Of a DNA stretch of 64,000 nucleotides, positions 4,444 to 58,063 are shown one piece after another. The notes below the pieces were generated by a model. That model worked only from the letters and a program-made list of their open reading frames with translations, ran no database searches and was not told the DNA's origin. Source of the stretch: Hoeflea sp. (lineage in GTDB: Bacteria; Pseudomonadota; Alphaproteobacteria; Rhizobiales; Rhizobiaceae); NCBI GenBank assembly GCA_019084245.1, contig JAHRFE010000029.1, positions 214,326 through 278,325 on the forward strand, given 5' to 3'. The first letter of the stretch is position 1. Each line of letters begins with the position of its first letter. The position numbers and the translations under genes are program-made.

Positions 4444-4689
4444 GGTGCTCTCCCTGATCCTGGCGATGGTTATCTTGGCAATCGAATGGCAGGCCGCCAA
4501 GGCTGAATGCGACGTGGACGCCCCGATCCCTTGCCGAGCGGGCAGATGCAGCCATGCCGATCATAGCCGAGCCGATGGGCGGGTCCACGCCTGACGTTGC
4601 GATTTGATTTGGAAAGAAGCCGCATGTCGTCTGGTCATCGCTTGATGGCATCGGCAACCTGCCCGGGCAACCGGATTTCACTTGACGGG

Positions 4690-5649: not shown

Positions 5650-5732
5650 ATCAAAATGTTATATTAATCCCGAAACAAATAATAGCTGCGCTTCTCCCAT
5701 CACCTATACTCGCCTCGGAGGAGGAGTTTGGG

Positions 5733-6596: not shown

Positions 6597-6613
6597 ACCT
6601 TGGGAGAGAGACA

Positions 6614-7579: not shown

Positions 7580-7588
7580 GCCGGCGGG

Positions 7589-9297: not shown

Positions 9298-9337
9298 AGC
9301 AGACGTCAGACTCAATCGTTCACGGGAGGATAAGCAG

Positions 9338-41134: not shown

Positions 41135-42298
41135 CTACTCGCCGAGTTCCTCGTCGGCAATGGCGGGCGAGAGATCCTGTTCGGCCTCGCCGGCGGGCTG
41201 GCGGGTGAAGCCCTTGACGCCCGAGGTCTCCTTGAAGTCGCGCTTGATTACCACCGGAGAGACGGCATAGGCGGTGATCAGCTCGGCCAGCGAACGCAGC
41301 GCGTGGGTGTGGATGCGCTCATAGCCGTGCGAGGCATCGACCCCGAAGGTGATCAGCGCGGTGCGCACATCGGCGCCGGCCTCGATGGCGCTTGCCGAAT
41401 CCGACCGGTAGTAGCGAAAGATGTCCTTCTGGTAGCGGATCTCGTTGTCCTTGCACAAATTCACCAGCTTCCTGGCGAGATGGTAGTCGAACGGTCCGGT
41501 CTGGTCGGCCATGGCGATGGTGACGCCGAATTCATCGGAATTCTGTCCTGGCGCCGTGGTGCCGTTGTCGACTGCGACCATGGAGGCAATGTTATGACTG
41601 ATCACCGAGGATGCGCCGACGCCGACTTCCTCGGCGATCGTGAACAGGAAATGGAGATCGACGGGCATCTCGGCCTCCTCGTCCTGCAGCGCCTTCAGCG
41701 CCGCCAGCATCACCGCGACGCCGGCCTTGTTGTCGAGGTGACGGGAGACAATGAAGCCATTGTGGAGAAATTCCGGCTGCGGATCGATCGCGATGATGTC
41801 GCCGATCTCGATGCCGAGCCGGATGATGTCGTCCTTGTTGCGCGATAGTGCGTCGATGCGCAGTTCCACATGCTGCCAGCCGACCGGCGCCGTATCGACC
41901 TCGTCATTGAACGTATGCCCGGAAGCCTTCAGCGGCAGGATCGTGCCGGTATAGGTGCCGCTGTCGGTAAATACTGTTGCCCGCGCGCCCTCGGCAAACC
42001 GCGCCGACCAGTGGCCGATCGCCACCAGTTCCAACCGGCCATTGTCCTTGAGCTGCTTGACCTGCGCGCCAAGCGTATCGAGGTGGGAGACGATGGCGCG
42101 CGCGCCCTCCTCGCGCTTGCCGGGGCGGATGGCCCGGATGGCGCCGCGCCGCGTCATTTCCACCTTGAGGCCCTGGCGCTCAAGTTCCCCGGTGACAAAG
42201 CGAACCACGGTATCGGTGTAGCCGGTCGGGCTTGGGATCTTCAGCAGCTTCTCCAGCATGTGAAGCATGTATTCGTGATCGATTGCCAGGCGTGTCAC
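41135..42298 (-). CDS. NAGGN-system M42-family peptidase
   Basis: A 387-residue M42-type metallopeptidase. Metal motifs are VSHLDTLGA, SRHLDNKAG and FTIAEEVGVG. It is the third gene of the NAGGN osmolyte operon and matches the peptidase that accompanies asnO-ngg in Pseudomonas, Sinorhizobium and relatives; its role is unproven, perhaps turnover of the dipeptide. It overlaps ngg by ATGA. The C-terminal tail beyond the catalytic core is short and acidic. Confidence 0.88.
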   Translation of the reverse strand: MTRLAIDHEYMLHMLEKLLKIPSPTGYTDTVVRFVTGELERQGLKVEMTRRGAIRAIRPGKREEGARAIVSHLDTLGAQVKQLKDNGRLELVAIGHWSARFAEGARATVFTDSGTYTGTILPLKASGHTFNDEVDTAPVGWQHVELRIDALSRNKDDIIRLGIEIGDIIAIDPQPEFLHNGFIVSRHLDNKAGVAVMLAALKALQDEEAEMPVDLHFLFTIAEEVGVGASSVISHNIASMVAVDNGTTAPGQNSDEFGVTIAMADQTGPFDYHLARKLVNLCKDNEIRYQKDIFRYYRSDSASAIEAGADVRTALITFGVDASHGYERIHTHALRSLAELITAYAVSPVVIKRDFKETSGVKGFTRQPAGEAEQDLSPAIADEELGE

Positions 42299-44127: not shown

Positions 44128-44134
44128 GACGGTC

Positions 44135-45910
44135 TCACACTCCGTGTGTCTGCAGCCACATTTCGAGAAGGGCGACCTGCCACAATTCCGATCCCCGCAG
44201 CGGCGTGATGTGGCTGGCCGGATCGGCAAACAGCGTGTCGAGGTACTCCTGCTTGAACAGCCCGCGCTCACGCGCTGATTGCGACCCGAGCGAATCCTTG
44301 ACCATGTCGAGATATTCCCCCTGGATATATTTGAGCTGCGGAACGGGGAAGTAACCCTTCTTGCGGTCGATCACCTCATGCGGCACGACGAGGCGCGCGG
44401 CGTCCTTGAGCACGCCCTTGCCCTGGTCGTTCAACTTGAATTCCGGCGGGATCGTCGCGGCAAGCTCCACCAGTTCATGATCGAGGAACGGCACACGCGC
44501 TTCCAGGCCCCAGGCCATCGTCATGTTATCGACCCGCTTGACCGGATCGTCGACCAGCATGACGTGGGAATCAAGCCGCAAGGCCCGGTCGACCGGGGTC
44601 GCGGCGCCTTCGCCAAGCAGATGATCGCGGACCAGCGACAGGCTGACATCGCTGTCGGCGATCCACTGGTCGCCAAGCTGCGTCTTCAGCGTTTCGTGGG
44701 TGCGGTCGAAGAACACCTTGGCATAGTCGCCGACGACATCGTTGGAATTGGCCAGCGGCGGATACCAGTGATAGCCGCCAAACACCTCGTCGGCGCCCTG
44801 GCCGGACTGCACCACCTTGATGTGCTTGGAGACTTCGCGGCTGAGCAGGAAAAAGCCGATATTGTCATAGGACACCATCGGCTCCGACATCGCGGCGATG
44901 GTGTCGGGCAGATGGCTGATCAGATCGGCCGAGGGCACGAAGATCTTGTGATGGTCGGTGTTGAAGGTCTTGGCGATCAGGTCGGAATAGACAAATTCAT
45001 CACCCTTCTCGCCATTGGCCTCCTCGAAGCCGATGGAGAACGTCATCAGGTCCTTCTGGCCTTCCTCGGCGAGCAGGCCGACGATCAGGCTCGAATCGAC
45101 GCCGCCCGACAAGAGCACGCCGACCGGAACATCGGCCACCATGCGGCGGCGCACGGCCAGACGCAGCGCATCGTGGACGCGGTCGCGCCAGTCGTTGCGC
45201 GTCAAGCCGGTGTCCTGGCTCAGCCGCTGGTAGGGTGGCTTCCAGTAGACCCGGTCGGTCGAGGCGCCATCCGGTGCAATGCGCCGGGTTGTTGCCGGCT
45301 GCAGCTTGCGCACACCCTTCAGCATGGTGCGCGGCGGCGGCACAACGGCGTGAAAGCTCATGTAATTGTGCAGCGCCTCGCGGTCGATCTCGGTGTCGAT
45401 GCCGCCGGCTTTTAAAAGCGCGGGCAGGAAGGAGGCAAAGCGGATGCGGCTCGCATCCTGGGCGTAATAGAGCGGCTTGATGCCGAAGCGGTCACGCGCC
45501 AGCACCACATCGCCGCTGTCGCGCTCGTGGATCGCGAAGGCGAACATGCCGTGGAAGCGCTCGACGCAGGCCTCGCCCCATTTGTGATAGGCCTTGAGCA
45601 CCACTTCGGTGTCGCCATGGGAGAAGAAGCTGTAGCCCTCGGCGATCAGTTCGGCGCGCAATTCCGGATAGTTGTAGATGCAGCCATTGAAGACGATGGT
45701 CAGCCCGAGCGCTGAATCCACCATTGGCTGGGCGGCCTTTTCCGACAGGTCGATGATCTTGAGCCGCCGGTGCCCGAAGGCGACACGTCCTTGCGCGACG
45801 ATGCCGCTCCCGTCAGGCCCGCGCGGGGCCATGGCGTCCGCCATGCGCGCAACGGCTGCAGTATCGGCAAACGCGCCGTCGACACGGATTTCCCCGGCAA
45901 TTCCACACAT
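44135..45910 (-). CDS. asnO: N-acetylglutaminylglutamine amidotransferase
   Basis: A 591-residue asparagine-synthetase-like enzyme. Cys2 (MCGIAGEIRV) is the glutamine amidotransferase nucleophile. The class II glutaminase domain covers about 1-200. The PP-loop VLLSGGVDSSLIVG begins the ATP-dependent synthetase domain at about 260. In the NAGGN pathway it amidates the acetylated dipeptide made by Ngg, yielding an osmolyte used under high salt. It is first in the asnO-ngg-peptidase operon. The 270-base upstream gap has no EcfG promoter and no obvious gene. Confidence 0.92.
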   Translation of the reverse strand: MCGIAGEIRVDGAFADTAAVARMADAMAPRGPDGSGIVAQGRVAFGHRRLKIIDLSEKAAQPMVDSALGLTIVFNGCIYNYPELRAELIAEGYSFFSHGDTEVVLKAYHKWGEACVERFHGMFAFAIHERDSGDVVLARDRFGIKPLYYAQDASRIRFASFLPALLKAGGIDTEIDREALHNYMSFHAVVPPPRTMLKGVRKLQPATTRRIAPDGASTDRVYWKPPYQRLSQDTGLTRNDWRDRVHDALRLAVRRRMVADVPVGVLLSGGVDSSLIVGLLAEEGQKDLMTFSIGFEEANGEKGDEFVYSDLIAKTFNTDHHKIFVPSADLISHLPDTIAAMSEPMVSYDNIGFFLLSREVSKHIKVVQSGQGADEVFGGYHWYPPLANSNDVVGDYAKVFFDRTHETLKTQLGDQWIADSDVSLSLVRDHLLGEGAATPVDRALRLDSHVMLVDDPVKRVDNMTMAWGLEARVPFLDHELVELAATIPPEFKLNDQGKGVLKDAARLVVPHEVIDRKKGYFPVPQLKYIQGEYLDMVKDSLGSQSARERGLFKQEYLDTLFADPASHITPLRGSELWQVALLEMWLQTHGV

Positions 45911-46180: not shown

Positions 46181-46528
46181 TCAGACCGCAGCGATGACGA
46201 TGATCTCGACCTTGTAGTCGGGCGTGGCGAGCCGTGCTTCGCCGGTGGCGCGGGCGGGGGCGTTGCCTTGCGAGACCCAGCCGTCCCAGACCGCGTTCAT
46301 CTCGGCAAAATCATCCATCGACGCCATCCAGATCGTGGTCTGCAGGATCTTGCTCTTATCCGAGCCGACAGACGCCAGCAGGCGATCGATATTGGCGAGG
46401 ATGTCCTGGGTCTGCACCGTGACGCTGGCGCCGGCGGTACCGACCTGGCCGGCCAGATAGACGAGTCCGCCATGGACGACGGCCTGGCTCATGCGCGGAC
46501 CGGTTTCGATACGTTTGATGTCACTCAT
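46181..46528 (-). CDS. RidA-family enamine/imine deaminase
   Basis: A 115-residue YjgF/RidA protein. QAVVHGGLVYLAGQVGTAG is the trimer-interface strand, and the Arg in PARATGEARLATPDYKVEI is in the position that binds the carboxylate of imine substrates. Such proteins hydrolyse reactive imines or enamines made by oxidases or PLP enzymes; here the gene overlaps a FAD amine oxidase by ATGA. It is the last gene of the nine-gene operon and probably finishes the oxidase step. Confidence 0.9.
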   Translation of the reverse strand: MSDIKRIETGPRMSQAVVHGGLVYLAGQVGTAGASVTVQTQDILANIDRLLASVGSDKSKILQTTIWMASMDDFAEMNAVWDGWVSQGNAPARATGEARLATPDYKVEIIVIAAV

Positions 46529-47652
46529 GTGTTTTGTCCTTGTTGAAAATTCAATGCCGCGCGCCCGGGTCCGAGTGCCTCGATAACGGTCTGCCCCAGC
46601 GCCGACGGGCGCCCGAGGCAAAGGTCGGCGGCCAGTTGCGACAGCGCCGGCGCCGTCTGCATACCATAGCCGCCCTGCCCCGCAAGCCAGAAGAAGCCGT
46701 TGTCCTCCGGCGAAAATCCGACCACCGGAGTCCGGTCCGGGGCAAAGGTGCGCATGCCGGCCCAGGTATGCTCGAGCCGTGTCACCGGCGTGGTCACCGC
46801 CTGCTCGTAGCGGTGAAGCCCTTCGGCGATCACCATGTCGTCGGCCCAGACGTCGTGCGGCTCGACCGGGTCCTCGTCGGCGGGCGAGATCATCAGCTTG
46901 CCGGCCTCGGGCTTGGCGTACCACTGGTCGCCGGCATTGGCGAAGAGCGGCCAGCGTGTGATGTCATGGCCGTCGGGTGCCGGGATCAGCGCAGCCGAGC
47001 GCCGAAGCGCCTGCAGGCCCAGAGTGCGGATACCGGCCATGTGTGCCACCGCATCGGCCCAGCCGCCGGCGGCATTGATCAGCACAGGGGCGGTGAATGT
47101 TCCCGCAGGCGTGGTGACCGACCAGACACCGTCGCGGCGGGTGATCGACTGCACCGGGGCCCCGGTGACAATGCTGCCGCCATGGCGGCGCAGCTTGCGG
47201 GCAAAGCCCTGCAGCATGCGGTCGACATCGATGTCCTGCGCGTCCCATTCGATTGCCGCTGCAGCAATCGCGTCGGGCCGCAGGATCGGCACCAATTCGA
47301 CCGCCTGGGCGGCCGAGAGCCGTTCCAGCCCGTCGCTGCCGTCGAGATAGGCTTCGAACTTGGCCATGTCTTCATCGGTGGCCACCAGCAACTCGCCGCG
47401 CGGAGACAAGAGGCTGGTTTCGGACACGCCTTCGGGATTTGCCAGGAACGGCGCCGATGCGGCGTTCAGCGCCCGCAAGGTGGCGTTACCGTAATTGCGG
47501 ATGAAGATCGCCGCCGAGCGGCCGGAGGAGTGATGGCCGATCGCGGGCTCCGCCTCGAGCATGGTCACGGACGCATCCGCCGCCAGTTGCGCCGCCGCAC
47601 TTATGCCGGCGATGCCGCCGCCGATCACCAGAATGTCGCTGTTCGTGCTCAT
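46525..47652 (-). CDS. FAD-dependent amine/amino-acid oxidase (DAO family)
   Basis: A 375-residue flavoprotein of the D-amino acid oxidase/glycine oxidase family. The dinucleotide motif DILVIGGGIAGISAAAQLA is at about 6-24, followed by HHSSGRSA (FAD contact). GMRTFAPDRTPVVGFSPEDN and GQGGYGMQTAPALSQLAADL near the end are typical of the family. It overlaps the deacetylase gene by ATGA and the RidA gene by ATGA. Expected chemistry is oxidation of a primary or secondary amine to an imine, with H2O2 or electron-chain transfer. Substrate unknown. Confidence 0.88.
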   Translation of the reverse strand: MSTNSDILVIGGGIAGISAAAQLAADASVTMLEAEPAIGHHSSGRSAAIFIRNYGNATLRALNAASAPFLANPEGVSETSLLSPRGELLVATDEDMAKFEAYLDGSDGLERLSAAQAVELVPILRPDAIAAAAIEWDAQDIDVDRMLQGFARKLRRHGGSIVTGAPVQSITRRDGVWSVTTPAGTFTAPVLINAAGGWADAVAHMAGIRTLGLQALRRSAALIPAPDGHDITRWPLFANAGDQWYAKPEAGKLMISPADEDPVEPHDVWADDMVIAEGLHRYEQAVTTPVTRLEHTWAGMRTFAPDRTPVVGFSPEDNGFFWLAGQGGYGMQTAPALSQLAADLCLGRPSALGQTVIEALGPGRAALNFQQGQNT

Positions 47653-48671
47653 CCCGCCTCGTACCCTTTGAGAAAGCTTGTCAGATTGTCGCCCAGATCG
47701 GCCGACAGATAACCGCCTTCCTGCACGATGACCGACGGCAGGTCCAGCCCTGCAATCCTGGCTGCAATCTGCGCGAAGCCCGGCGTCGTCACCTTGAAGC
47801 CGTGGAACGGATCGTTCTCATGGGCGTCGAGCCCCAGCGCCAGCACCAGCACATCGGCGCCGAAGGCGCGGATCCGGGCGAGCGCGGCGTCGAGCGCCAC
47901 AAGATAGTCTTCCGTGACGGTGCCGCGCGGCAGCGGCAAGTTGAAATTATACCCCATCCCCTCGCCCTCGCCCCTTTCGGCGGCGTGACCCCAGAAGAAC
48001 GGATAGAACCGCGCCGGATCGGCATGGATCGAGACCGTCAGCACATCGCGGCGCTGATAGAAGATGCCTTGCGTGCCGTTGCCGTGATGCACGTCGACAT
48101 CGAGGATGGCCGGGCGACGGCCGGCGCGCAGCAGGGCCTGGGCGGCAATCGCCGAATTGTTGAGAAAACAGAAGCCGCCGGCCAGATCGCCGAATGCGTG
48201 ATGGCCCGGCGGGCGGCAAAGCGCGTAGACCGTGCGCTCTCCCGCCAGCACCGTATCGACGGCGCTGAGCGCCGACTGCGCCGACCAGTAGGCCGATTGC
48301 CAGGTGCCGGCCGCAATCGGGCAGGAGGTGTCGGCCTGGTGAAAGCCTGCCTGGCCCGCCGCCGAACTCGGATAGCTCGCAGTCCGCCGGTCGGGATGGA
48401 TGTTCGGGATCACCTCGTCCGAAGCGCCCTCGGTGCGCGACCAGCGGTCATGGATGGTTTCGAGAAAGGCGAGGTATTCGGGCGAATGGATCTCCGCAAT
48501 CGGCCCGGCGCCGTGGTCGGTTGGCGCGATGAACCCACATCCGGCGGCGCTCGCGCCCCGGCTCAGCTCCTCAATGCGTTGCGGCTGCTCCGGATTGGCG
48601 GAGGGCCTGCCATTCGCCATGAAATGCTTCGGGTCATGCGCCCGCTGGCGCGCGTCGAAAATCGCCTTCAT
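47649..48671 (-). CDS. Acetylpolyamine amidohydrolase-like deacetylase (histone deacetylase family)
   Basis: A 340-residue class II HDAC-fold zinc deacetylase, the same length as bacterial acetylpolyamine amidohydrolases. Catalytic His158-His159 (PPGHHAFG), zinc ligands Asp193, His195 (DVDVHHGNG) and Asp282 (LGLDAHENDP), and the transition-state Tyr321 (EGGYLS) are all present. It deacetylates an N-acetylated amine in the cytoplasm. In this operon with a polyamine-type importer, the substrate is likely an N-acetyl-diamine or N-acetylated amino acid. It overlaps the FAD oxidase gene by ATGA. Confidence 0.92.
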   Translation of the reverse strand: MKAIFDARQRAHDPKHFMANGRPSANPEQPQRIEELSRGASAAGCGFIAPTDHGAGPIAEIHSPEYLAFLETIHDRWSRTEGASDEVIPNIHPDRRTASYPSSAAGQAGFHQADTSCPIAAGTWQSAYWSAQSALSAVDTVLAGERTVYALCRPPGHHAFGDLAGGFCFLNNSAIAAQALLRAGRRPAILDVDVHHGNGTQGIFYQRRDVLTVSIHADPARFYPFFWGHAAERGEGEGMGYNFNLPLPRGTVTEDYLVALDAALARIRAFGADVLVLALGLDAHENDPFHGFKVTTPGFAQIAARIAGLDLPSVIVQEGGYLSADLGDNLTSFLKGYEAG

Positions 48672-48705
48672 GCCCGGGCTCCCGGCGTGCTGATGTCATG
48701 CATGG

Positions 48706-49632
48706 TCAAAATCCTACCTTGTCGCTGCCCTTGAGGCCGAGCATCGCGCGCGTCTCATCGGGCGTCGCCACCACGCGGCCGGCGGCTTCGACGATGTCGC
48801 GCACCTTCTCCACCTGCTCGGCATTGGATGTCGCCAGCTCGCCGCGGGCGATATAGAGATTGTCTTCCAGCCCGACGCGGACATGGCCGCCCATAGAGGC
48901 GCAGAGCCTGGCCATCGGCATCTGCTGGCGGCCGGCGGCAAGCACCGAGAACATGTAGTCGTCGCCAAACAGGCCGTCGGCGGTCTGCTTGAGATAGGCC
49001 AGATGTTCGGGCTCGGCCGCGACACCGCCCAGCACCCCCATGACGAACTGGATGAAGACCGGCGCCTTTACGAGGCCGCGGTCGACGAAATGATGCAGCA
49101 TATGCAGATGGCTCAGATCATAGCATTCGAACTCGAACCGGGCGCCGCGCTCCTGGCCCATCAGCGTGAGCACGCATTCGATGTCCCGCGGCGTGTTCTT
49201 GAACACCAGATCGTCGGAATTGCGAAGGAACGGCTCCTCCCAGTCATGGAGCCACTCGATGCGCTTGCCGAGCATCGGATAGAGCGCGAAATTCATCGTG
49301 CCCATGTTGAGCGAGCACATCTCCGGCCCCGCCGCCAGAGGCCCGGCGAGACGCTGTTCCATCGTCATGATCGCGCTGCCGCCGGTCGTCAGGTTGATCA
49401 CCGCATCGGTTTCGGCCCTGATCGCCGGCAGGAACGCCATGAAATCCTCCACTTCAGCCGAGGGACGGCCGTCGTGGGGATCGCGGGCATGCAGATGCAG
49501 GATTGCAGCGCCTGCCTTGGCCGCAGCAATGGCCTGCCCGGCGATCGCCTCGGCGGTCACCGGCAAATAGGGCGACATCGACGGCGTGTGGATCGAGCCG
49601 GTGACGGCGCAGGTGATGATGATCTTCGACAT
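48706..49632 (-). CDS. Beta-keto acid cleavage enzyme (BKACE, DUF849)
   Basis: A 308-residue TIM-barrel enzyme of the BKACE family (type member: 3-keto-5-aminohexanoate cleavage enzyme, Kce). Zn-binding HLHARDPHDGRPS, NLTTGG, and VRVGLEDNLYIARGE are in the expected order. The family reacts a beta-keto acid with acetyl-CoA to give acetoacetate plus a shorter CoA thioester. Its neighbour, a class III aminotransferase, could make the beta-keto acid. The actual substrate is unknown and cannot be predicted from these motifs. Confidence 0.9.
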   Translation of the reverse strand: MSKIIITCAVTGSIHTPSMSPYLPVTAEAIAGQAIAAAKAGAAILHLHARDPHDGRPSAEVEDFMAFLPAIRAETDAVINLTTGGSAIMTMEQRLAGPLAAGPEMCSLNMGTMNFALYPMLGKRIEWLHDWEEPFLRNSDDLVFKNTPRDIECVLTLMGQERGARFEFECYDLSHLHMLHHFVDRGLVKAPVFIQFVMGVLGGVAAEPEHLAYLKQTADGLFGDDYMFSVLAAGRQQMPMARLCASMGGHVRVGLEDNLYIARGELATSNAEQVEKVRDIVEAAGRVVATPDETRAMLGLKGSDKVGF

Positions 49633-49637
49633 GGCAA

Positions 49638-50984
49638 TCAGGCCGTCTCGACCGCAAGCCCGGCCTTCGCCGCAAACTTGATGAGCGCAGAGGTCAGCAT
49701 GTCGATGAGTTCATCGATCTGCTCTTCGGTGATGATCATCGGCGGACAGACCATGAAATGGTCGCCCTCAAGCCCGCCGCGGGTCCGGCGCGAATAGATG
49801 ATCAGGCCCTCGGCATAGGCGAGCTCGACGAGTTCCGTGTGGGCGTTGAGCGCCCTGGGCAGCGGCTGCATGGTGCGCCGGTCGGCCACCAGTTCGAAAG
49901 CCAGCAGAAGCCCCTGGCCGCGCACATCGCCGATGAAGGAAAACCGCTGCATCAGGTTTTCGAGCCGCGCCTTGAGCAAGCCGCCCATGCGGGCAGCATT
50001 CAGCATCAGCTCGCCGGTCTCGATTTCCTCCAGCACCGCCAGGCCCGCGGCACAGGCCTGCGGGTTGCCGGCATAGGTGTGGCCATGCAGAAACCCGCCG
50101 GCATCGAGCACCGGCTCGATCAGCCGGTCCTGGGCGATCATCGCGCCAAGCGGCACGTAGCCTGCGCCAAACCCCTTGGAGATGGCAATGATATCGGGCT
50201 CCACGCCAAAATGCTCGGCGCCCATGAATGTGCCGGTACGGCCGCCGCCCGACATCACCTCGTCATGGATCAGCAGCACGCCGTACCGGTCGCAGATCTC
50301 GCGCACCGCCTGCATGTAACCGGCCGGCGGCATCAGCGCTCCAGTGGACGCGCCGCCGACCGGCTCCTGGATGAAGGCCAGCACGCTATCCGGGCCCTCC
50401 TCGAGAATTTTCGCTTCCAGCATCGCCGCATAATGGGCGCCGGTTGCCGGATCATCGCTGTCCAGACCATCGAGATAGGCGCGCGGCGCCGGGATCTTCG
50501 GCATCGCCTGCATCATCGGCGCGAACGGGTCTGACAATGGCGCGTATCCGGTCAGCGCCAGCGCGCCAAGCGTGGAGCCGTGGTAACTCGGATCGCGCGA
50601 GATCACCTTCCAGCGCGACCCCTGCCCCACCGTCACCGCATATTGCCGCGCCAGCTTGATGGCGCTTTCCACCGCCTCCGATCCGCCTGAGACGAAGAAG
50701 ACCTTCTCCATCCCTGCGGGCGAGAGCGAGGCCACCTTGGCGGCGAGCTGCTCGCTCGATTCGGTCTCGAAATGCAGCCGGTAGCCGAAGGTGGATTTTT
50801 CCATCTGCCGCCGCATCGCTTCCAGCACGCGGGGATTGGAATGGCCAATGTTGGACACCATGGCGCCCGACGAGCCGTCGAGATAGCGCTTGCCGTCGAC
50901 ATCCCACATGTAGACGCCGCGCGCTTCGGATAGCACCGGCCGCCGCGAGCGGGTCTGGTAGAACAGATGGCTCTCCAATGTCAC
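49638..50984 (-). CDS. Class III PLP-dependent aminotransferase
   Basis: A 448-residue omega-/beta-amino acid aminotransferase. PLP-binding motifs are visible: Asp in LLIHDEVMSGGGRTG and Lys in IIAISKGFGAGYVPLGAM. GTG at 50984 is chosen because it follows GGGGAG and overlaps the ATPase stop as GTGA; an upstream in-frame extension lies inside the ATPase gene. Class III enzymes often act on beta-alanine, GABA, putrescine or beta-amino acids. Five bases separate it from the BKACE gene, so its product may be the BKACE substrate. Confidence 0.92.
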   Translation of the reverse strand: MTLESHLFYQTRSRRPVLSEARGVYMWDVDGKRYLDGSSGAMVSNIGHSNPRVLEAMRRQMEKSTFGYRLHFETESSEQLAAKVASLSPAGMEKVFFVSGGSEAVESAIKLARQYAVTVGQGSRWKVISRDPSYHGSTLGALALTGYAPLSDPFAPMMQAMPKIPAPRAYLDGLDSDDPATGAHYAAMLEAKILEEGPDSVLAFIQEPVGGASTGALMPPAGYMQAVREICDRYGVLLIHDEVMSGGGRTGTFMGAEHFGVEPDIIAISKGFGAGYVPLGAMIAQDRLIEPVLDAGGFLHGHTYAGNPQACAAGLAVLEEIETGELMLNAARMGGLLKARLENLMQRFSFIGDVRGQGLLLAFELVADRRTMQPLPRALNAHTELVELAYAEGLIIYSRRTRGGLEGDHFMVCPPMIITEEQIDELIDMLTSALIKFAAKAGLAVETA

Positions 50985-52069
50985 GGACGGCTCCCCACCG
51001 GAAGCGCTGCGCAGTCCCGTGCGCGGAACTGCAGAGCCACCTTGGCGCCCGCGGCAAAGGGATGGTCCTCGATCATGTTGACGGCCTGCATCTGGTGATC
51101 GCCGACGCGGACGAAATAGCGCGCCGACTGGCCCTGGTAATCGACGGTCTCGACGATCGCGTCGACCGACAGACACCCGTTTTCCGGCGTCCCGGGCGCT
51201 TTCAGCTGCAGTTTCTCGGCGCGGATCACCAGCCGGACCGGACCCGGGCCGGTCACTTTCGGAGCGCGTTCCTTCGGGATCGGGATTGCCGGAAAATCCG
51301 GCAGTTCGAGCACGATGCCGCCATTGGCGACGTCTCGGCAGCGGGCGTCAAGCAAATTGGAGGCGCCGAGGAACTTCGCGACGAACTCGGTCGCCGGCGT
51401 GTTGTAGACATCCTCCGGCGCACCGACCTGCTCGACGCGGCCTTCCGACATCACGATGATCTGGTCCGACATCGCCAGGGCCTCGGTCTGGTCGTGGGTC
51501 ACGAACACCGTGGTCACGCCGATGCTTTGCTGGATGCGCTTGAGCTCCACCCGCATGTCCTCGCGCAGATTGGCGTCGAGCGCCGACAGCGGTTCATCGA
51601 GCAGCAGCACGTCCGGCTCGATGACGATGGCGCGAGCGAGTGCAATCCGCTGCTGCTGGCCGCCGGAGAGTTCCTTGGGATAGCGCCCCCCGAGATCGGG
51701 TAGTTGCACCAGGTCGAGCGCTGCTGCCACCTTGCGTTTGGCGTCATCCTTGCCGACATCGCGGTAGTTCAGGCCGAAGGCCACATTCTCGGCGACCGTC
51801 TTGTGCGGAAACAGCGCATAGTTCTGGAACACCAGGCCCAGATTGCGCTTGTGGATCGGCACATCATTGACCCGCTTGCCCTTGATGGTGATATCCCCTT
51901 CGGTGGGATCGAGCAGGCCCGCGATCATGCGCAGGGTCGTGGTCTTGCCGCATCCGGAAGGCCCCAGAAGCGTGACGAAGCTGCCCTCCTCGATATCCAG
52001 CGACATCTGGTGCACGGCGGTATAGTCGCCAAAACGCTTGACGATGTTGCTCAGGGAAACTGCGCTCAC
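50981..52069 (-). CDS. potA: Polyamine-type ABC transporter ATPase (PotA-like)
   Basis: A 362-residue ATPase from GTG 52069 (preceded by GGAGG). Walker A is GPSGCGKTTTLRMIAG, the signature is LSGGQQQRIALARA and Walker B is VLLLDEPLSALD. The C-terminal TOBE region starts near 285. It overlaps the aminotransferase gene by GTGA. The subunits PotB and PotC lie upstream with the binding protein between. PotA symbol is by family only; the substrate is not proven to be a polyamine. Confidence 0.92.
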   Translation of the reverse strand: MSAVSLSNIVKRFGDYTAVHQMSLDIEEGSFVTLLGPSGCGKTTTLRMIAGLLDPTEGDITIKGKRVNDVPIHKRNLGLVFQNYALFPHKTVAENVAFGLNYRDVGKDDAKRKVAAALDLVQLPDLGGRYPKELSGGQQQRIALARAIVIEPDVLLLDEPLSALDANLREDMRVELKRIQQSIGVTTVFVTHDQTEALAMSDQIIVMSEGRVEQVGAPEDVYNTPATEFVAKFLGASNLLDARCRDVANGGIVLELPDFPAIPIPKERAPKVTGPGPVRLVIRAEKLQLKAPGTPENGCLSVDAIVETVDYQGQSARYFVRVGDHQMQAVNMIEDHPFAAGAKVALQFRARDCAALPVGSRP

Positions 52070-52098
52070 GGCATCCTGCCTCCGGTTTGCGGAAAATG

Positions 52099-52125
52099 CC
52101 GGCCCCATCCATAAGACGGGGCCGG
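52099..52125 (-). promoter_or_regulatory. Hairpin downstream of the binding-protein gene
   Basis: CCGGCCCC (52099-52106) and GGGGCCGG (52118-52125) form a perfect 8-bp stem with an 11-base loop between the binding-protein stop and the potA start. There is no T tract. It probably sets the ratio of binding protein to ATPase. Confidence 0.6.
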
Positions 52126-52133
52126 ATGCTGGC

Positions 52134-53279
52134 TTAGTAGCCGCGCTGGACGCGGCCGAATTCCTTCGACCACTCGGCCTCGTTGCCGTTCCAGTAGGCC
52201 GGATTGGCGAAGGTCAGGCCCGAGAGCGTGCCGGTGGCGTCAAAGGCAGGAAGCGTCGGGATCTTTTGGCCGAGATCGACCTTTGTCGGATCAAGCGCCG
52301 GCGGGTAGCTCTGGCCCTCGGCCACCGCGATCGAGGTGTCCTTGTCGAGCATGAAGTTGATCAGTTCCTCGCAGGCCGCCATCGGGCTGCCCTTGATCAC
52401 GAACAGGCATTCCTGCCAGCCGAAGCTCTGCGGCGGGTCGTAATAGCCGATGTCGTGACCCTGTTCCTGCAGGGCATGGATGCGGCCGGACCAGCCTTCG
52501 GTGACGTAGATCTCCTCTTCGGCCAGCAGGCTCATCAGTTCGGCGCCCGATGCCCAGTATTTGAGAGCCACGTCGCGATGCTTGCGTACGGCATCCCAGG
52601 CGGCGTCAAGGTCCTGGATGTCGTTGGGATCCTGGCCGGTCTGCAGCGCCGCGTACCACATGCGTGTGCGCCAGTCGCTCCAGCCGCCGATCTTGCCCTT
52701 GTAGGCCTCGTCGATGAGGATCTTGGCGCCCTTTTCCTTCATCTCCTCATCGCTGATATGCTTGCGATTGTAGGCAAGGCCGGTCGTGCCGTAGTTGTAA
52801 GGCGCGGCGCTCAAGCTGTCGGGCGTGATCGACTTGAACGCGTTCATCAGCGCCGGCATGACATTGGCCATGTTCGGGATGTTGTCGAGGTTGAGTTCGC
52901 TGTTGAGCTCGAAGCCGTGATAGCGGGCGTAATCGAACACGCCCGACAGGTGGGCGATGTTGTATTCGCCAGGCTGGCTCGCGCGCACCAGCGCCAGATA
53001 TTCGTCGCCGCCGGGGAAGGTGCCGTCGATGACGGTGATGCCGGTCTTCTCCGTATAGGGATCGAAGGCGAACTTGCGGAAGGCTTCAGAAACAACGCCG
53101 CCCCAGCCGTCAAAGCGGACCTGGGAAACGTCGCTCTGGGCAAATGCCTGCCGTGCGAAGGGCATCTGCAGGCCGTAGGCTGCACCGGCTGCGCCGAGAA
53201 GGCCGAAAAAACTGCGGCGGCTGATATCGCCGTTCTGGAACCGCTCGCGCAGTCGTTCATAGCGTTTTGTGTCGTCCAT
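52134..53279 (-). CDS. Polyamine-type ABC transporter substrate-binding protein
   Basis: A 381-residue PotD/PotF-like binding protein. An N-terminal twin-arginine-like signal (SRRSFFGLLGAAGAAYGLQM) ends near AFAQ. The mature region begins VSQVRFDGWGGVVSEAFRKF and continues through a two-lobed fold. GGAGAA lies six bases before the ATG. The two permease genes precede it and PotA follows. In this family the ligand may be putrescine, spermidine or a related amine or amino acid; the neighbouring deacetylase and aminotransferase favour an N-acetylated or amine-bearing ligand. Confidence 0.9.
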   Translation of the reverse strand: MDDTKRYERLRERFQNGDISRRSFFGLLGAAGAAYGLQMPFARQAFAQSDVSQVRFDGWGGVVSEAFRKFAFDPYTEKTGITVIDGTFPGGDEYLALVRASQPGEYNIAHLSGVFDYARYHGFELNSELNLDNIPNMANVMPALMNAFKSITPDSLSAAPYNYGTTGLAYNRKHISDEEMKEKGAKILIDEAYKGKIGGWSDWRTRMWYAALQTGQDPNDIQDLDAAWDAVRKHRDVALKYWASGAELMSLLAEEEIYVTEGWSGRIHALQEQGHDIGYYDPPQSFGWQECLFVIKGSPMAACEELINFMLDKDTSIAVAEGQSYPPALDPTKVDLGQKIPTLPAFDATGTLSGLTFANPAYWNGNEAEWSKEFGRVQRGY

Positions 53280-53318
53280 TATCGTTCTCCGTCTCTGGTT
53301 AAGGTTCAATTCGGCGGC

Positions 53319-54104
53319 TTATTGACCGCTTCTTGTTGCAAGTGTCCGGGCGATCGCCGCGCCGATCAGCGGCAGCCCGACCGTCAGCACGATCATGACC
53401 GTGCCGAGGGCGTTGATTTCAGGCGAAATGGAATTGCGCAGCATCGAGAAGATCTGCGTCGGCACGGTCTCGATTCCGCCCGGCTTCCAGAACAGGGTTC
53501 CGGTGATGTCGTCGAAGCTGATGGTGAAGGCGAAAAGGCCGCCCGCCGCCACCGCCGGCATCAGCAGCGGCAGCGTGATCGCAAAGAAGGTCTGCATCGG
53601 CGACGCGCCGAGGCTCATCGCCGCCTCCTCGACATCGCGCTTGATGCTGACCAGCCGCGCCTGCACCACCAGAATGACGAAGGGCAGCGTGAAGATCACG
53701 TGGCCGGCGAGCAGGAGGGTGAAGCTCTTGCCGAAATTGAGGAAATTGAGAAACAGCAGCAGCGCCACGGCGAGCACCACCTCGGGCACCAGGATCGGCG
53801 CGATCAGCAGCGTGGTGATCAGGTTCCGGCCCGGAATCTTGTAACGCACCAGCGCGAGGCTTGCGAGAACCCCGAGCACGGTCGAGATCACAGCCGTCAT
53901 CAGACCCAGCACGATCGAGGTCCGGAAGGCGCGCATGATCGCGTCATTGTTCCACAAGGCCTCGAACCAGCGGGTCGACAGGCCGGTCATCGGGAAGCTG
54001 CCGAACTGGTTGGCGTTGAACGACAGCAGCACCACCACCGCAATCGGCAGGAACATGAACAGATAGACCAGGATCGTGTAGATGCGGATCAGACGCCAGC
54101 CCAT
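53319..54104 (-). CDS. potC: Polyamine-type ABC transporter permease (PotC-like)
   Basis: A 261-residue permease with six hydrophobic segments. LVSIKRDVEEAAMSLGASPM, followed by QTFFAITLPLLMPAV, is the EAA coupling loop of PotC-type permeases. It overlaps the PotB gene by one base. Expected location is the inner membrane, partnered with PotB and PotA. Confidence 0.92.
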   Translation of the reverse strand: MGWRLIRIYTILVYLFMFLPIAVVVLLSFNANQFGSFPMTGLSTRWFEALWNNDAIMRAFRTSIVLGLMTAVISTVLGVLASLALVRYKIPGRNLITTLLIAPILVPEVVLAVALLLFLNFLNFGKSFTLLLAGHVIFTLPFVILVVQARLVSIKRDVEEAAMSLGASPMQTFFAITLPLLMPAVAAGGLFAFTISFDDITGTLFWKPGGIETVPTQIFSMLRNSISPEINALGTVMIVLTVGLPLIGAAIARTLATRSGQ

Positions 54105-54970
54105 CAGCCAAGCCCCTTCGCCAGTTGCGCCATGCCGAGATAGCGGTTGTAGATCAGCACCAGCACGCCGAGCACCATCAGCAAGAGCAGCGACAGCGCA
54201 GAGCCAAGCGGCCAGTCGAGCTGGCGGATGATCGCCTCGTAGACCAGGTTGGCGAACATCGCGTCGCGCGGGCCGCCGAGGATCACCGGCGTGATGTAGG
54301 TGCCAGCGGACAGCACGAAGCAGAGCAGCCCGCCCGCGGCAAGGCCAGGCAGGGACAGCGGCAGCGTCACCTGCAGGAAGCCCTGCCAGCGCGTGGCGCC
54401 GAGCGAGGAGGCCGCGTCCTCGAGATTGGTGTCGATGCCATCGAGGCTCACGAAGATGTTGAGCACCATGAACGGCAGCAGGAAGTGCACGAGCCCAAGG
54501 ATCACGGTGGTCTCGTTGTAGAGCATCTGGATCGGCTCATTGATGATGCCGGCCCAGATCAGCGCCGCATTGAGCGCTCCGGAGACGCCCAGAATGTTGA
54601 TCCAGCTCATCGTGCGGATGATGTAGCTGATCCAGAACGGCAGCATCAGCAACACCAGAAGCACCATTTTGTTGCCTTTCGAGCGGGCAATGAAATAGGC
54701 CGCCGGATAGCCCAGAAGTGCGCAGGCGAGCGTGGTGATGGCGGAAATCTTGAGCGTGTTGAGCAGGATGTCGCGATAGAACGGGTCGGTCAGCGCTTCC
54801 TGCCAATTGTCGAGATAGAAGCCGGGCGTGTCGGCGCCCACGGCGCTCTTGAGCCAGAACGAATAGACGACGATGAAGATGAGCGGCACGATCAGCAGCA
54901 GGGTGACTGCCGTGAGGGCTGGCGTCAGCAGAATCCACGGCTGCCGCGCCTCGCGTTGTTCGATGCTCAT
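54104..54970 (-). CDS. potB: Polyamine-type ABC transporter permease (PotB-like)
   Basis: A 288-residue permease with six hydrophobic segments. The EAA loop is IDTNLEDAASSLGATRWQ. A large first periplasmic loop (YLDNWQEALTDPFYRDILLN) fits PotB. It is the first gene of the nine-gene leftward operon, which begins opposite the LysR gene at 55079. Confidence 0.93.
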   Translation of the reverse strand: MSIEQREARQPWILLTPALTAVTLLLIVPLIFIVVYSFWLKSAVGADTPGFYLDNWQEALTDPFYRDILLNTLKISAITTLACALLGYPAAYFIARSKGNKMVLLVLLMLPFWISYIIRTMSWINILGVSGALNAALIWAGIINEPIQMLYNETTVILGLVHFLLPFMVLNIFVSLDGIDTNLEDAASSLGATRWQGFLQVTLPLSLPGLAAGGLLCFVLSAGTYITPVILGGPRDAMFANLVYEAIIRQLDWPLGSALSLLLLMVLGVLVLIYNRYLGMAQLAKGLG

Positions 54971-55042
54971 GGTCTCAACGCTCCCCGGCGTCTTCTTGTT
55001 GGGAGCATGATGTTGGCTCAGAGCGTATTGATCAAATAGATA

Positions 55043-55072
55043 ATTGATATTGTGTTCATTGATGATATCAAT
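55043..55072. promoter_or_regulatory. Inverted repeat, likely LysR operator
   Basis: ATTGATAT (55043-55050) and ATATCAAT (55065-55072) are a perfect 8-bp inverted repeat separated by 14 bases, in an AT-rich island between potB and the LysR gene. A TTGATCAA palindrome at 55028-55035 lies alongside. This fits LysR-type autoregulation and control of the divergent operon. It also argues that the LysR gene starts at the ATG 55079 rather than at an earlier GTG. Confidence 0.55.
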
Positions 55073-55078
55073 AATGAA

Positions 55079-56038
55079 ATGTTCAGCCTCACCCCGCCCG
55101 AACGCCTGGCCCGCGACCTCGACTGGAATCTGCTCCGCACATTCCTCGTGCTCGCCGATTCCCGCTCGGTGACGGAGGCCGCCGAACGGCTGAGCCTGAA
55201 GCAGCCGACCGTCTCAAGCGCGCTCAAGCGTCTGGAAGACCGGCTCGGCAAGCGCCTGATCAACCGCAAGCCCGGGCGCTTCGAACTCACCGCCGCCGGG
55301 CGGCTACTCTATGACGAGGCGATCGACATCCACGGCGCCATTCTTCGCCTGGGAACGGTCATCCGGGATGTCGAGGACGAGGTCAGCGGCCATGTCCGCA
55401 TCGTCATGGCGAGCCATGTCGTCAGCCCCCTGTTGAACGCGACGCTCACCAAGTTCCATACGGATCATCCCCGCGCCACGCTGTCGATCGAGGTTATGGC
55501 GAGCCGCGGGGCCTTGACGGCCGTTGCCGCGCGCCGCGCCTCGCTTGCCATCTGCCTGGTGATGGACCGCAGTCCGGCGCTTGAATACCGGCGGCTGTTC
55601 CGCGAGTATTTCGGCCTGTTCTGCGGCCCGACCCATCCGCTCTTCGGTCGCGAAGGCGTCACCATGGCCGATCTCGCCGGCCATTCGTCGGTGAGCTTCG
55701 TCACCGACCAGATGGATGACGCACTCCGGCCTGTGGCGAAAATGCGCGCCGAGGCGCAGCTCGACGCCCGCATTGTCGGCACCTCGCCCAATCTCGAAGA
55801 GGTGCGGCGGATGATCATCGCCGGGCTCGGCATCGGCCCCTTGCCGCTGCATGTGGTGCGCGAGGATGTGGAGCGCGGTAGGCTGTGGCGGCTGCCGCCC
55901 TATGACGCGCCGCCGGCGATCGACGTGCATGTGGTCTGGAACCCGCATGCCAAGCAGAACCGCGCCGAGGCGGCCATGCTCACCGGCCTGACCACCCTGA
56001 TCGCCCGTACACCGATGGATGACCGCATCTACAGCTGA
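55079..56038 (+). CDS. LysR-family regulator of the polyamine-type operon
   Basis: A 319-residue LysR regulator. The HTH is at about 18-75 (LVLADSRSVTEAAERLSLKQ, then LKRLEDRLGKRLINR) and the effector domain follows. It is divergent from the nine-gene importer/catabolic operon at 54970, the standard layout for its activator. The start at the ATG 55079 leaves the inverted repeat at 55043-55072 free. An upstream GTG at 55052 would lie inside that repeat. Confidence 0.88.
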   Translation: MFSLTPPERLARDLDWNLLRTFLVLADSRSVTEAAERLSLKQPTVSSALKRLEDRLGKRLINRKPGRFELTAAGRLLYDEAIDIHGAILRLGTVIRDVEDEVSGHVRIVMASHVVSPLLNATLTKFHTDHPRATLSIEVMASRGALTAVAARRASLAICLVMDRSPALEYRRLFREYFGLFCGPTHPLFGREGVTMADLAGHSSVSFVTDQMDDALRPVAKMRAEAQLDARIVGTSPNLEEVRRMIIAGLGIGPLPLHVVREDVERGRLWRLPPYDAPPAIDVHVVWNPHAKQNRAEAAMLTGLTTLIARTPMDDRIYS

Positions 56039-56066: not shown

Positions 56067-56648
56067 TTACTGCAACACCAATCCAAGCTGCTGAAGGTTC
56101 ACCAGGATCTCGTCGATGCTGTCGGCAAGCAGCCTGTCCTCCTCGACCAACCAGGAATCAAGGGCTTTCTTGATCGCACAAATAACCACGACAGCCAGAA
56201 TGTCACCCAGATGATCTTTGTCGGGACCCAGCCGTGTCGCTAGAATGGTTGCAAGTTCCGATATCAATCCGCGCATGGATGCCTCATGGGCGTTCTTCAG
56301 GCCGGGGTTGTCGCGCAGGAGCGCCTGGATCAGAAGTCCCGCTTTTCTGTTCTGGTCGATCTGGGTGAGATGGGCGACCAGCAGCCCGCGCATGTCTTCG
56401 AGCAAGCTTCCGTTTCCCTCGGCAAATTCCTTCGCCGCCGCTTCGGGAAAGTCAGGCGGGCGATGCACGATCGCCGCTTCCTTGTTGGGGAAATAGTTGA
56501 AGAATGTGCGCAGGCTGATGCCGGCGCGGCTGGAGATCGCCTCCGTGGTCACGGCGTCGAGGCCGTGTTCCTGGCACAGCTCCAAAGCCGCGACATGGAT
56601 CTCCCTGGCCGTCTGCGCGCGGCGCCGCACTCTCAATGCATTCTCCAT
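56067..56648 (-). CDS. TetR-family repressor of the RND efflux operon
   Basis: A 193-residue TetR-type regulator. The HTH (about 12-58: AREIHVAALELCQEHGLDAV, then ISLRTFFNYFPNKEAAI) is followed by a ligand-binding helical domain. It is divergent from the RND pump genes with a partial dyad in between, a standard repressor arrangement. The ATG at 56648 follows GGAGAAATC; the upstream in-frame start has no ribosome site. The inducer is unknown. Confidence 0.9.
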   Translation of the reverse strand: MENALRVRRRAQTAREIHVAALELCQEHGLDAVTTEAISSRAGISLRTFFNYFPNKEAAIVHRPPDFPEAAAKEFAEGNGSLLEDMRGLLVAHLTQIDQNRKAGLLIQALLRDNPGLKNAHEASMRGLISELATILATRLGPDKDHLGDILAVVVICAIKKALDSWLVEEDRLLADSIDEILVNLQQLGLVLQ

Positions 56649-56683
56649 GATTTCTCCGCCCTCTACTTTCTCACAGCGCAAAT

Positions 56684-56710
56684 ATTGCACACAGTGCATT
56701 TTCGTGCAAT
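56684..56710. promoter_or_regulatory. Inverted repeats, likely TetR operator
   Basis: ATTGCAC (56684-56690) and GTGCAAT (56704-56710) are a 7-bp inverted repeat spaced by 13 bases. A second dyad, TGCAC-ACA-GTGCA (56686-56698), overlaps it. They lie in the divergent gap between the TetR gene and the RND operon, just upstream of the TetR start. Confidence 0.55.
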
Positions 56711-56821
56711 GAGACTCTCCATGTCAATGCCCTCGTGGTCTGACCGAAACAGATGAACCCCATCTGTCAGGATCGCACCACCAGAGACTGCCCCCAGTTC
56801 TGACGAGCGAGACCGCCCCTC

Positions 56822-58033
56822 ATGAAAAGTCATTCTTCACGAGCACGACCCACACTGTTGGGGGCGATTGTAGCAATTGCTCTGGGACTGAGCCAGTCCG
56901 CCACTGCCCAGGGGTTTCCGCCCGGGCCGCAAGGCCCGGCCGCCGTTGGCGTCATCACCGCCGAGGTTGAAACAGTCCCCTACACGGTCACCCTTCCCGG
57001 CCGCGCAGCTGCTTTTCAGGAAGCCAGCATCCGCCCGACGGTGGAGGGTATTATCGAAGAGATCAATTACCGGCCCGGAGAAGCGCTCAAGGCAGGGGAT
57101 CTCATGTTCACGCTCGGACGTGACCGTTATCTGGCAGCCTTGGCCGCGGCTGAGGCCGAGCAGGCCGGCGCCGAAGCCTCGGTGGCAGCCGCTGAAACCA
57201 CGGTGAACCGGTACCGGAGCCTTGCCGGGAGCGGCGTGACGCAGGTCCAGCTCGACACTGCCGAAGTCGATCTGCTCACCGCGAAGGCGTCGCTCAGCAG
57301 CGCCCGATCTGCCGTGACGCTTGCCCAGATCAATCTCGACGGCACCGAAATCCGCAGCCCCATCGAAGGCATTCCCTCCGTTTCGGCGGTCTCGGTGGGC
57401 GCGGTGGTGACCGCCAACCAGACCGACGCGCTGACCACCGTGCGCCGTCTTGATCCGATCTATGTGGACTTGACGGAATCGAGCGCCCGCATGCTTCGGG
57501 TCAGAAGCCGCATCAGTTCCGGCCAGATCACGCGTGGCCAGTCGCTCAACGCCAGACTGACACTTGAGGACGGCACGCTCTATGAAGACCAGGGAACCTT
57601 CGTCAGCCCCGGAACAGCGGTCTCCGCCACCACCGGCACGATCGAATTGCGCATCGAGTTTCCAAATTCCGATCGGCTGATCCTGCCAGGACAATTCCTG
57701 CGCGTCGCGGTCGAACTCGGCACCACCGAGGCCGTTCTGGTGCCGCAACGGGCCACCAGCCGCACCAGCGACGGCCGCCTGACCGCCTTCATCGTCCGCG
57801 ACGGCAAGGCGGCACTGGTCAATCTCACCGAGAGCGGCAGCCATCGGAACTCCTGGATCGTCACCGATGGCCTGGAGGCCGGCGACAAGATCATAGTCGA
57901 CGGGCTGAAATCGCTGCGCGCCGATATGGAGGTCGAACCGGTGGACGTTGTCATCGGCGAAGACGGCCTCGTTGAAGACGCCGGCATCGCCGATGCCGTC
58001 CCGGCCGGCCAGCCCGCGCCTGCCAAGCCCTGA
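56822..58033 (+). CDS. RND efflux periplasmic adaptor (membrane fusion protein)
   Basis: A 403-residue membrane fusion protein. The N-terminal signal peptide (ALGLSQSATAQ cleavage region) leads to a barrel-sandwich hybrid with a lipoyl-like half (VPYTVTLPGRAAAFQEASIR; VTQVQLDTAEVD) around a helical hairpin at about 100-165. It is the adaptor of the AcrA/MexA class linking the RND pump to the outer-membrane channel. It lies next to the TetR gene and 30 bases before the pump. Confidence 0.92.
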   Translation: MKSHSSRARPTLLGAIVAIALGLSQSATAQGFPPGPQGPAAVGVITAEVETVPYTVTLPGRAAAFQEASIRPTVEGIIEEINYRPGEALKAGDLMFTLGRDRYLAALAAAEAEQAGAEASVAAAETTVNRYRSLAGSGVTQVQLDTAEVDLLTAKASLSSARSAVTLAQINLDGTEIRSPIEGIPSVSAVSVGAVVTANQTDALTTVRRLDPIYVDLTESSARMLRVRSRISSGQITRGQSLNARLTLEDGTLYEDQGTFVSPGTAVSATTGTIELRIEFPNSDRLILPGQFLRVAVELGTTEAVLVPQRATSRTSDGRLTAFIVRDGKAALVNLTESGSHRNSWIVTDGLEAGDKIIVDGLKSLRADMEVEPVDVVIGEDGLVEDAGIADAVPAGQPAPAKP

Positions 58034-58063
58034 CGGGCCCCCACTTCCCTCGGAGGCCTCCTG

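Follow-up and report, generated by a model that had tools for sequence, protein, structure and literature searches.

Which compound does an operon take up and degrade when it combines an ABC importer with a class-III aminotransferase (AT3), a beta-keto acid cleavage enzyme (BKACE), a deacetylase of the histone deacetylase (HDAC) fold, a FAD enzyme and a Rid protein? This operon and its divergent LysR gene lie at positions 46,181 to 56,038 of a 64,000-nucleotide stretch of Hoeflea sp. (contig JAHRFE010000029.1), and we refer to the whole stretch as the window. A first-pass annotation had proposed that an imported N-acetylated beta-amino acid is transaminated, cleaved with acetyl-CoA and deacetylated. 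We retain these reaction types and modify the accompanying readings of the deacetylase and of the importer. On balance we lean towards an operon for the uptake and two-carbon shortening of an N-acetylated diamino beta-acid, which would most likely be N6-acetyl-beta-lysine.

Composition and conservation of the operon

The nine genes described earlier are all present on the minus strand, nearly contiguous from 54970 to 46181, in the order PotB-PotC-PotD-PotA-AT3-BKACE-HDAC-FAD-RidA, with the LysR gene diverging at 55052. Successive intergenic gaps measure -1, 39, 64, -4, 5, 34, -4 and -4 bases, so the description of the genes as tightly overlapping suits most junctions but not the three loose ones (39, 64 and 34 bases). 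A space of 270 bases separates the last gene, Rid, from an asparagine-synthase-like gene. Every operon protein and the LysR regulator carry the expected Pfam domain over the Pfam cut-off (PF05853 for BKACE, PF00850 Hist_deacetyl, PF00202 for the class-III aminotransferase, PF01266 DAO and PF01042 Rid, among others), and the family assignments made at first pass therefore hold.

GTDB genomes were scanned with the HDAC-fold protein and the best 80 of 587 relatives were kept, a set biased towards close copies and towards the HDAC-fold gene itself; sequences were not thinned, and one genome may recur between this set and the other loci discussed below (for example L032 and L056). The first-pass annotation had called for a search for conserved neighbourhoods, and in this one the gene set proves conserved: among the best 80, AT3 is found in 73 loci, BKACE in 71 and both in 70, and all 70 pairs lie within 4.5 kb of the HDAC-fold gene. 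The DauA-like gene for the FAD enzyme is present in 47 and Rid in 32. The importer is PotABCD-like in 59, an amino-acid ABC system in 10, and missing or cut in 11; the last group includes two uncut clusters that have no importer (L114, L125) and two HDAC-fold genes that stand without a cluster (L078, L121). The LysR gene is linked to the cluster in most relatives, and the nearest titled ones among the matches listed are Hoeflea, whose HDAC-fold proteins are 88-93% identical. Since the arrangement recurs across many alphaproteobacterial genera, it is not there by chance. In Azospirillum (L267, 9001-12607) the HDAC-fold gene and BKACE belong to another operon, together with a gene annotated as acetolactate synthase and close to hydrolase genes.

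The aminotransferase gene is coupled to genes for probable beta-keto acid cleavage

A search seeded with AT3 alone covered 378 genomes of the phylum, and 28 copies in 27 genomes passed; neighbours were counted in 4-kb loci at identity limits of 50%/45%. Among the 22 AT3 copies with at least 50% identity, 17 stand with BKACE, 3 with CoA-transferase A/B and 2 with neither, so that a beta-keto acid cleavage partner is found beside 20 of the 22 close copies. One of the two partnerless copies, viewed over 20 kb (L280), still had neither BKACE nor CoA-transferase. The six copies below 50% identity had neither partner at the set limits, and one of them (L256/L283) has a BKACE-like neighbour at 28%.

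The exchange of partners can be followed in the genome of the window itself, where a parallel cluster (L269, at G000:C32:226000-245900) holds an AT3 paralogue (64%) in the order amino-acid ABC importer, creatininase-family gene, AT3, 3-oxoacid CoA-transferase A/B, M20 deacylase and thiolase. Both CoA-transferase subunits (243 and 266 bits) exceed their cut-offs, as do the ArgE/DapE-type M20 deacylase (NF005306, 632 bits, cut-off 376) and the thiolase (TIGR01930, 388 bits, cut-off 241), and these genes stand in place of BKACE and the HDAC-fold gene. The classical way of cleaving beta-keto acids other than by BKACE uses a CoA-transferase with a thiolase. L278 likewise brings together a GNAT acetyltransferase, AT3, CoA-transferase A/B, M20 deacylase and thiolase, and L275 holds CoA-transferase A/B, an HDAC-fold gene, Rid and, by eye, a thiolase-like gene. 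Two Hoeflea loci (L053, L062) have no AT3 or BKACE at the main site; both genomes have the CoA-transferase cluster, and their best BKACE elsewhere is 59% and 47% identical, respectively. A FastTree phylogeny was built from 113 AT3 sequences. Its 88-member clade (support 1.0) includes two of the three copies of the CoA-transferase type, next to a BKACE-type copy; the remaining one diverges ahead of the 107 other members of the wider clade. From these positions, the partners were exchanged on at least one occasion in the history of the family. Because CoA-transferase and thiolase replace BKACE in AT3 clusters, there is good evidence at the level of gene content that AT3 would make a beta-keto acid and hence act on a beta-amino acid.

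The deacetylase is exchanged as well. M20 deacylases of the ArgE/DapE type and amidohydrolases of the creatininase or DMFA2 type replace or join it in sister clusters, and the latter two types occur with the amino-acid importer. A DMFA2_C (dimethylformamidase-like) gene lies just upstream of the aminotransferase in L043, L045, L272-L274 and L279-L281, which are of the amino-acid-importer version.

The BKACE of the operon combines the PF05853 domain with an intact LHLHAR zinc motif and a glutamate, Glu169, that corresponds to the catalytic E171 of BKACE15, a mapping counted along the alignment with chain numbering taken as residue numbering. It shares motif and catalytic glutamate with the known members BKACE15 and Kce, whereas 22 positions (among them F196 versus T and F228 versus W) separate the operon BKACEs (84 plus that of the window) from 18 that have no aminotransferase neighbour. 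The Kce step of lysine fermentation, cleavage of 3-keto-5-aminohexanoate, belongs to the same reaction class but has an unacetylated substrate and an anaerobic setting. The NCBIfam Kce model gives the operon protein 251 bits against a cut-off of 382, and a lysine-fermentation reading is weakened by these scores.

In relatives an acetyltransferase gene precedes that of the putative deacetylase

A GNAT gene is present in 58 of the best 80 loci, in all 58 directly before the HDAC-fold gene, between it and BKACE. The nearest relative of the window, L052, carries it, and the window has just 34 bases at that site. That one catabolic operon should encode both an acetyltransferase and a deacetylase can be understood if a second amine is first protected and later deprotected.

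The HDAC-fold protein has the RPPGHH and EGGY motifs of acetyl-specific deacylases, and its closest solved structure is an acetylpolyamine aminohydrolase. It thus shares fold family, motifs and nearest structures with the acetylpolyamine amidohydrolases (cluster 4 of the bacterial deacylases), and differs from them around the substrate. According to PMC11532494, Glu106 of MrApaH binds the amine of acetylpolyamines and the active site of polyamine deacetylases is highly negative. In 89 orthologues of the operon protein the Glu106 position is V, A, T, I, S or L and never acidic (0/89), the Glu117 position is A or S, the PIS gatekeeper has become P(F/L)x, and arginine is gained at the positions of E223 (87/89) and T235 (87/89). 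The isoelectric point of the whole protein hardly differs (5.7 in the window, orthologue median 5.6, MrApaH 5.3), so the charge change is local. The gained arginines are a stronger hint against a polyamine substrate than the loss of Glu106, and judged by its residues the enzyme is unlike those that deacetylate polyamines. A distinct deacetylation step, as first proposed, is supported, with the HDAC-fold protein as its candidate enzyme.

Importer and thioesterase

The importer had been called polyamine-type, and its kinship with PotABCD stands. Its binding protein, however, scores 33.6 bits with the PotD model against a cut-off of 582 and does not qualify as PotD. A Foldseek search with its AlphaFold model retrieved PotD/PotF, the GABA (gamma-aminobutyrate) receptor Atu4243 and opine-binding proteins; the GABA binder matches as well as the spermidine binders do, and the opine binders somewhat less. 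The structure thus leaves the choice of ligand between spermidine, GABA and opines undecided. In some clusters an amino-acid-type ABC importer replaces PotABCD, and its binding protein scores highest with the cystine and Lys/Arg/Orn models, under both cut-offs.

Two Shinella plasmids combine the amino-acid importer, AT3, BKACE, GNAT, the HDAC-fold gene and LysR with an acyl-CoA thioesterase, whose role would be to free the product from CoA; L272, L273 and L279 hold thioesterase genes of a similar kind.

The DauA-like dehydrogenase and Rid as a possible second entry

The FAD enzyme had been described as an oxidase, a label we replace by amino-acid dehydrogenase of the DauA type (best PDB match 3nyc). 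With the residue roles given in PMC11193025, the carboxylate clamp of D-arginine dehydrogenase (Y53, R222, Y249, R305) is kept in 57/57 orthologues; among the cation-binding residues Glu87 is kept in 48/57 and Glu246 is E or D in 57/57. The operon enzyme differs from DauA in that His48 is replaced in 57/57 and in that it belongs to a different operon. The Rid protein scores 96 bits with PF01042, has the conserved arginine in a PAR motif and lies under the TIGR00004 cut-off. In the in vitro results reported in PMC5619798, DauA was accelerated by Rid2 and Rid3 and not by RidA or Rid1.

The DauA-like gene follows the importer, being present in 44/59 PotABCD loci versus 0/10 amino-acid-importer loci among the best 80 (Fisher p ~1e-5, with relatedness ignored). 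One locus (L046) has importer, BKACE and DauA-like gene and lacks AT3, which suggests that the product of the DauA-like enzyme can feed BKACE. We infer that this enzyme would oxidise the beta-amine, perhaps that of an enantiomer which AT3 refuses, and the pair with Rid probably handles another stereoisomer or substrate. L185 (G380, 3890-10091) reduces the operon to LysR, the PotABCD importer and, after them, an intact DauA-like gene. An apparent in-frame stop in this gene was dismissed, as it is only the terminal stop codon.

Proposed pathway and its relation to known systems

In the pathway that we propose, the PotABCD-like proteins would import an N-acetylated diamino beta-acid, most likely N6-acetyl-beta-lysine. 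The aminotransferase would exchange the beta-amine for a keto group, which in the case of acetyl-beta-lysine yields 6-acetamido-3-oxohexanoate, and BKACE with acetyl-CoA would cleave this keto acid, which the acetyl group would keep from cyclising. The products would be acetoacetate and an omega-acetamido acyl-CoA, in the same case 4-acetamidobutyryl-CoA. From the latter the HDAC-fold enzyme would strip the acetyl group to give a product at the level of GABA, and overall the substrate would be shortened by two carbons. GNAT-bearing relatives could acetylate the substrate themselves, and the strain of the window would either depend on the import of a compound acetylated beforehand or do without this step. 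Through the DauA-like dehydrogenase and Rid, the opposite stereoisomer or some related amino acid would gain a second way into the route. We are fairly confident of the general scheme of acetyl-protected beta-acid cleavage, in which the order of reactions is deduced, and the reaction types are backed by GNAT in relatives, by the swap to CoA-transferase and thiolase, by the amino-acid importers and by the Shinella thioesterase. The identification of acetyl-beta-lysine or beta-lysine as the substrate is plausible and stays tentative.

The best single match among known routes appears to be the aerobic degradation of N6-acetyl-beta-lysine and beta-lysine, and the analogy drawn at first pass fits the reaction types of the conserved cluster. 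Aerobic degradation of L-beta-lysine, reportedly described in a Pseudomonas by Barker and co-workers, proceeds through acetylation, transamination, acetyl-CoA-dependent cleavage, and deacetylation or thiolysis. For each of the acetyltransferase, aminotransferase, cleavage and deacetylase/thioesterase steps, the conserved cluster taken as a whole offers a candidate gene; the operon of the window differs in having no acetyltransferase and no thioesterase, and in the additional DauA-like, Rid and PotABCD genes. Acetyl-beta-lysine is described as an osmolyte of methanogens. Several cluster bearers have names or titles pointing to marine sources, an origin that would be in keeping with uptake of the acetylated compound where GNAT is lacking.

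Several findings weigh against the proposed pathway. The N-acetyltransferase of an acetyl-protected beta-lysine pathway, present in 58 of the best 80, is absent from the window, and the best GNAT match genome-wide is unconvincing (E 2.8e-6 over 64 residues). Likewise no thioesterase of the Shinella type occurs in the best 80 loci. NF053538, which names a BKACE for 3,5-dioxohexanoate, gives the operon enzyme 492 bits against a cut-off of 430; this name is not decisive and may be narrower than the function, since BKACE15 of Paracoccus is described as taking several beta-keto acids. Three genomes (L080, L117, L126) have AT3 and no close BKACE (best at most 38%); they do hold a CoA-transferase over its family cut-off, a weak observation since such genes are common. 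The reduced gene sets of L185 and L046 suggest that the importer's substrate need not pass every step, and the kept cation-binding glutamates of the DauA-like enzyme would suit a free amine more readily than one that carries an acetyl group. The loss of Glu106 does not by itself exclude polyamines, since PsApaH, a working polyamine deacetylase, is described as having His there. Finally, a lysine 2,3-aminomutase of the KamA family occurs in no more than 2 of the 39 operon genomes scanned (L095 left out), a rarity that gives no indication of an endogenous source of beta-lysine.

The two KamA-positive operon genomes are both Gemmobacter (L114 and L125; KamA loci L200/L202 and L201/L203), whose clusters have no importer, and G080, which bears one, also scores for KamA. 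No operon gene lies beside KamA in 34 KamA loci of about 4 kb. We dropped KamA as a pointer to beta-lysine, since it came from one genus with no obvious partner by eye and 111/385 genomes of the class exceed the cut-off. At least at L208 (2641-3966) and L223 (2640-3963) KamA is followed by two genes, by eye of the ATP-grasp type (D-Ala-D-Ala-ligase-like).

Alternative explanations

The alternative closest to our proposal keeps the same chemistry and changes the substrate to another diamino or N-acyl beta-acid, such as beta-ornithine, 3,5-diaminohexanoate, or an N3-acyl beta-amino acid deacylated before transamination. We consider this rather unlikely, even though the evidence sets reaction types and not chain length, and the varied amidohydrolases of sister clusters suggest varied amide forms; removal of an N3-acyl group first is hard to square with a GNAT gene directly before the deacetylase gene in 58 of the best 80. 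Utilisation of a D-amino acid such as D-lysine or D-arginine, with the DauA-like enzyme and Rid as the main entry and aminotransferase and BKACE for side products, seems improbable. It would account for the similarity to DauA, which Rid2 and Rid3 speed up in vitro (PMC5619798), for the association of the DauA-like gene with the PotABCD importer (44/59 versus 0/10), and for an alanine-racemase-family gene in 4 of the best 80 (L095, L119, L122 and L123, the L119 copy over the TIGR00492 cut-off). It leaves BKACE unexplained, however, the DauA-like gene is absent from 33 of the best 80, only one of them cut just after the HDAC-fold gene, and His48 is replaced in 57/57.

Catabolism of acetylpolyamines, in which PotABCD would import, the HDAC-fold enzyme deacetylate and the aminotransferase and FAD enzyme oxidise the amines, we regard as very improbable. 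The best solved-structure match of the deacetylase and the PotABC-like permeases and ATPase speak for it. Against these stand the non-acidic Glu106 position in 89/89 with arginine gained nearby (though PsApaH has His), the want of any role for BKACE or for CoA-transferase and thiolase, the carboxylate clamp retained in 57/57 DauA-like enzymes, and the replacement of the importer by amino-acid ABC systems. A carnitine reading was weakened by gene content only.

Implications

Returning to N6-acetyl-beta-lysine, a wider version of our proposal sees a widespread alphaproteobacterial module for this compound and beta-lysine, in which the HDAC-fold enzyme would have been re-tuned from polycations to an anionic acyl-CoA, the DauA-like enzyme and Rid would be a stereochemical bypass of the transaminase, and the genes of a sequence-orphan transaminase and 4-acetamidobutyryl-CoA deacetylase would be supplied; we offer it as a speculative possibility. 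To our knowledge, EC 2.6.1.65 and EC 3.5.1.51 are known biochemically and have no sequence. If the proposal is true, it gives these activities their genes, places an HDAC-fold enzyme in the catabolism of small acids, provides a sink for a methanogen osmolyte, and corrects the automatic names "3-keto-5-aminohexanoate cleavage protein" and "histone deacetylase family protein" (carried on Shinella and Phyllobacterium plasmids). Among the matches listed, the literature on BKACE, beta-lysine, acetyl-beta-lysine degradation, orphan enzymes and pathway intermediates gave no account of this operon; the subscription literature was mostly outside the search, so that absence is unproven.

Regulatory region and coordinates of the features

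The inverted repeat noted earlier between LysR and the operon exists, as ATTGAT-N3-ATCAAT at 55058-55072. A second element adjoins it, and the word TATCTAT within this element recurs in 55 of 60 intergenic regions between PotB and LysR, that of the window included (a raw word count). The segment with both elements is a probable LysR binding region (Table 1).

Table 1. Features of the operon and of its regulatory region (positions in the window)
Feature	Coordinates	Strand	Evidence and remarks
Divergent LysR-type regulator	55052..56038	+	PF00126, PF03466; ATG at about 55082 may be the true start
Conserved intergenic elements, probable LysR binding region	55027..55072		ATTATCTATTTGATCAAT at 55027-55044; ATTGATATCATCAAT at 55058-55072
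PotB-like ABC importer permease, first gene of the operon	54104..54970	-	NF007044 PotB 205 bits, cut-off 348; PF00528 over cut-off
PotC-like ABC importer permease	53319..54104	-	NF007047 PotC 214 bits, cut-off 326; PF00528 over cut-off
PotD-like solute-binding protein	52134..53279	-	SBP_bac_8 over cut-off; AlphaFold model pLDDT 81
PotA-like ABC ATPase	50981..52069	-	TIGR01187 potA 347 bits, cut-off 356; Walker A and LSGGQ motifs; GTG start picked, start further upstream possible
AT3, predicted beta-amino acid transaminase	49638..50984	-	PF00202; SKG motif at 269; neighbours in AT3-seeded search
BKACE, predicted beta-keto acid:acetyl-CoA cleavage enzyme	48706..49632	-	PF05853 365 bits; NF053538 492 bits, cut-off 430; LHLHAR motif; Glu169
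HDAC-fold deacetylase, predicted omega-acetamido acyl-CoA or acetamido acid deacetylase	47649..48671	-	PF00850 238 bits; RPPGHH, DVDVHHG, EGGY motifs; polyamine-binding Glu replaced
DauA-like FAD amino-acid dehydrogenase	46525..47652	-	Top PDB match 3nyc DauA, E 6e-85; carboxylate clamp kept
Rid-family imine deaminase	46181..46528	-	PF01042 96 bits; PAR motif with Arg93; TIGR00004 61 bits, cut-off 106

Neighbouring genes

Downstream of the operon, at 44135-45910 and 41135-44271, lie the asparagine-synthase-like gene and two further genes, which by eye resemble a set for the synthesis of the osmolyte N-acetylglutaminylglutamine amide. The asparagine-synthase-like gene stands beside the cluster only in L052, L053 and L062 among 100 loci, and was treated as a coincidence and not as a functional partner. 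On the other side, 56067-62526 by eye holds an RND efflux set and, diverging from it, a regulator of the TetR type.

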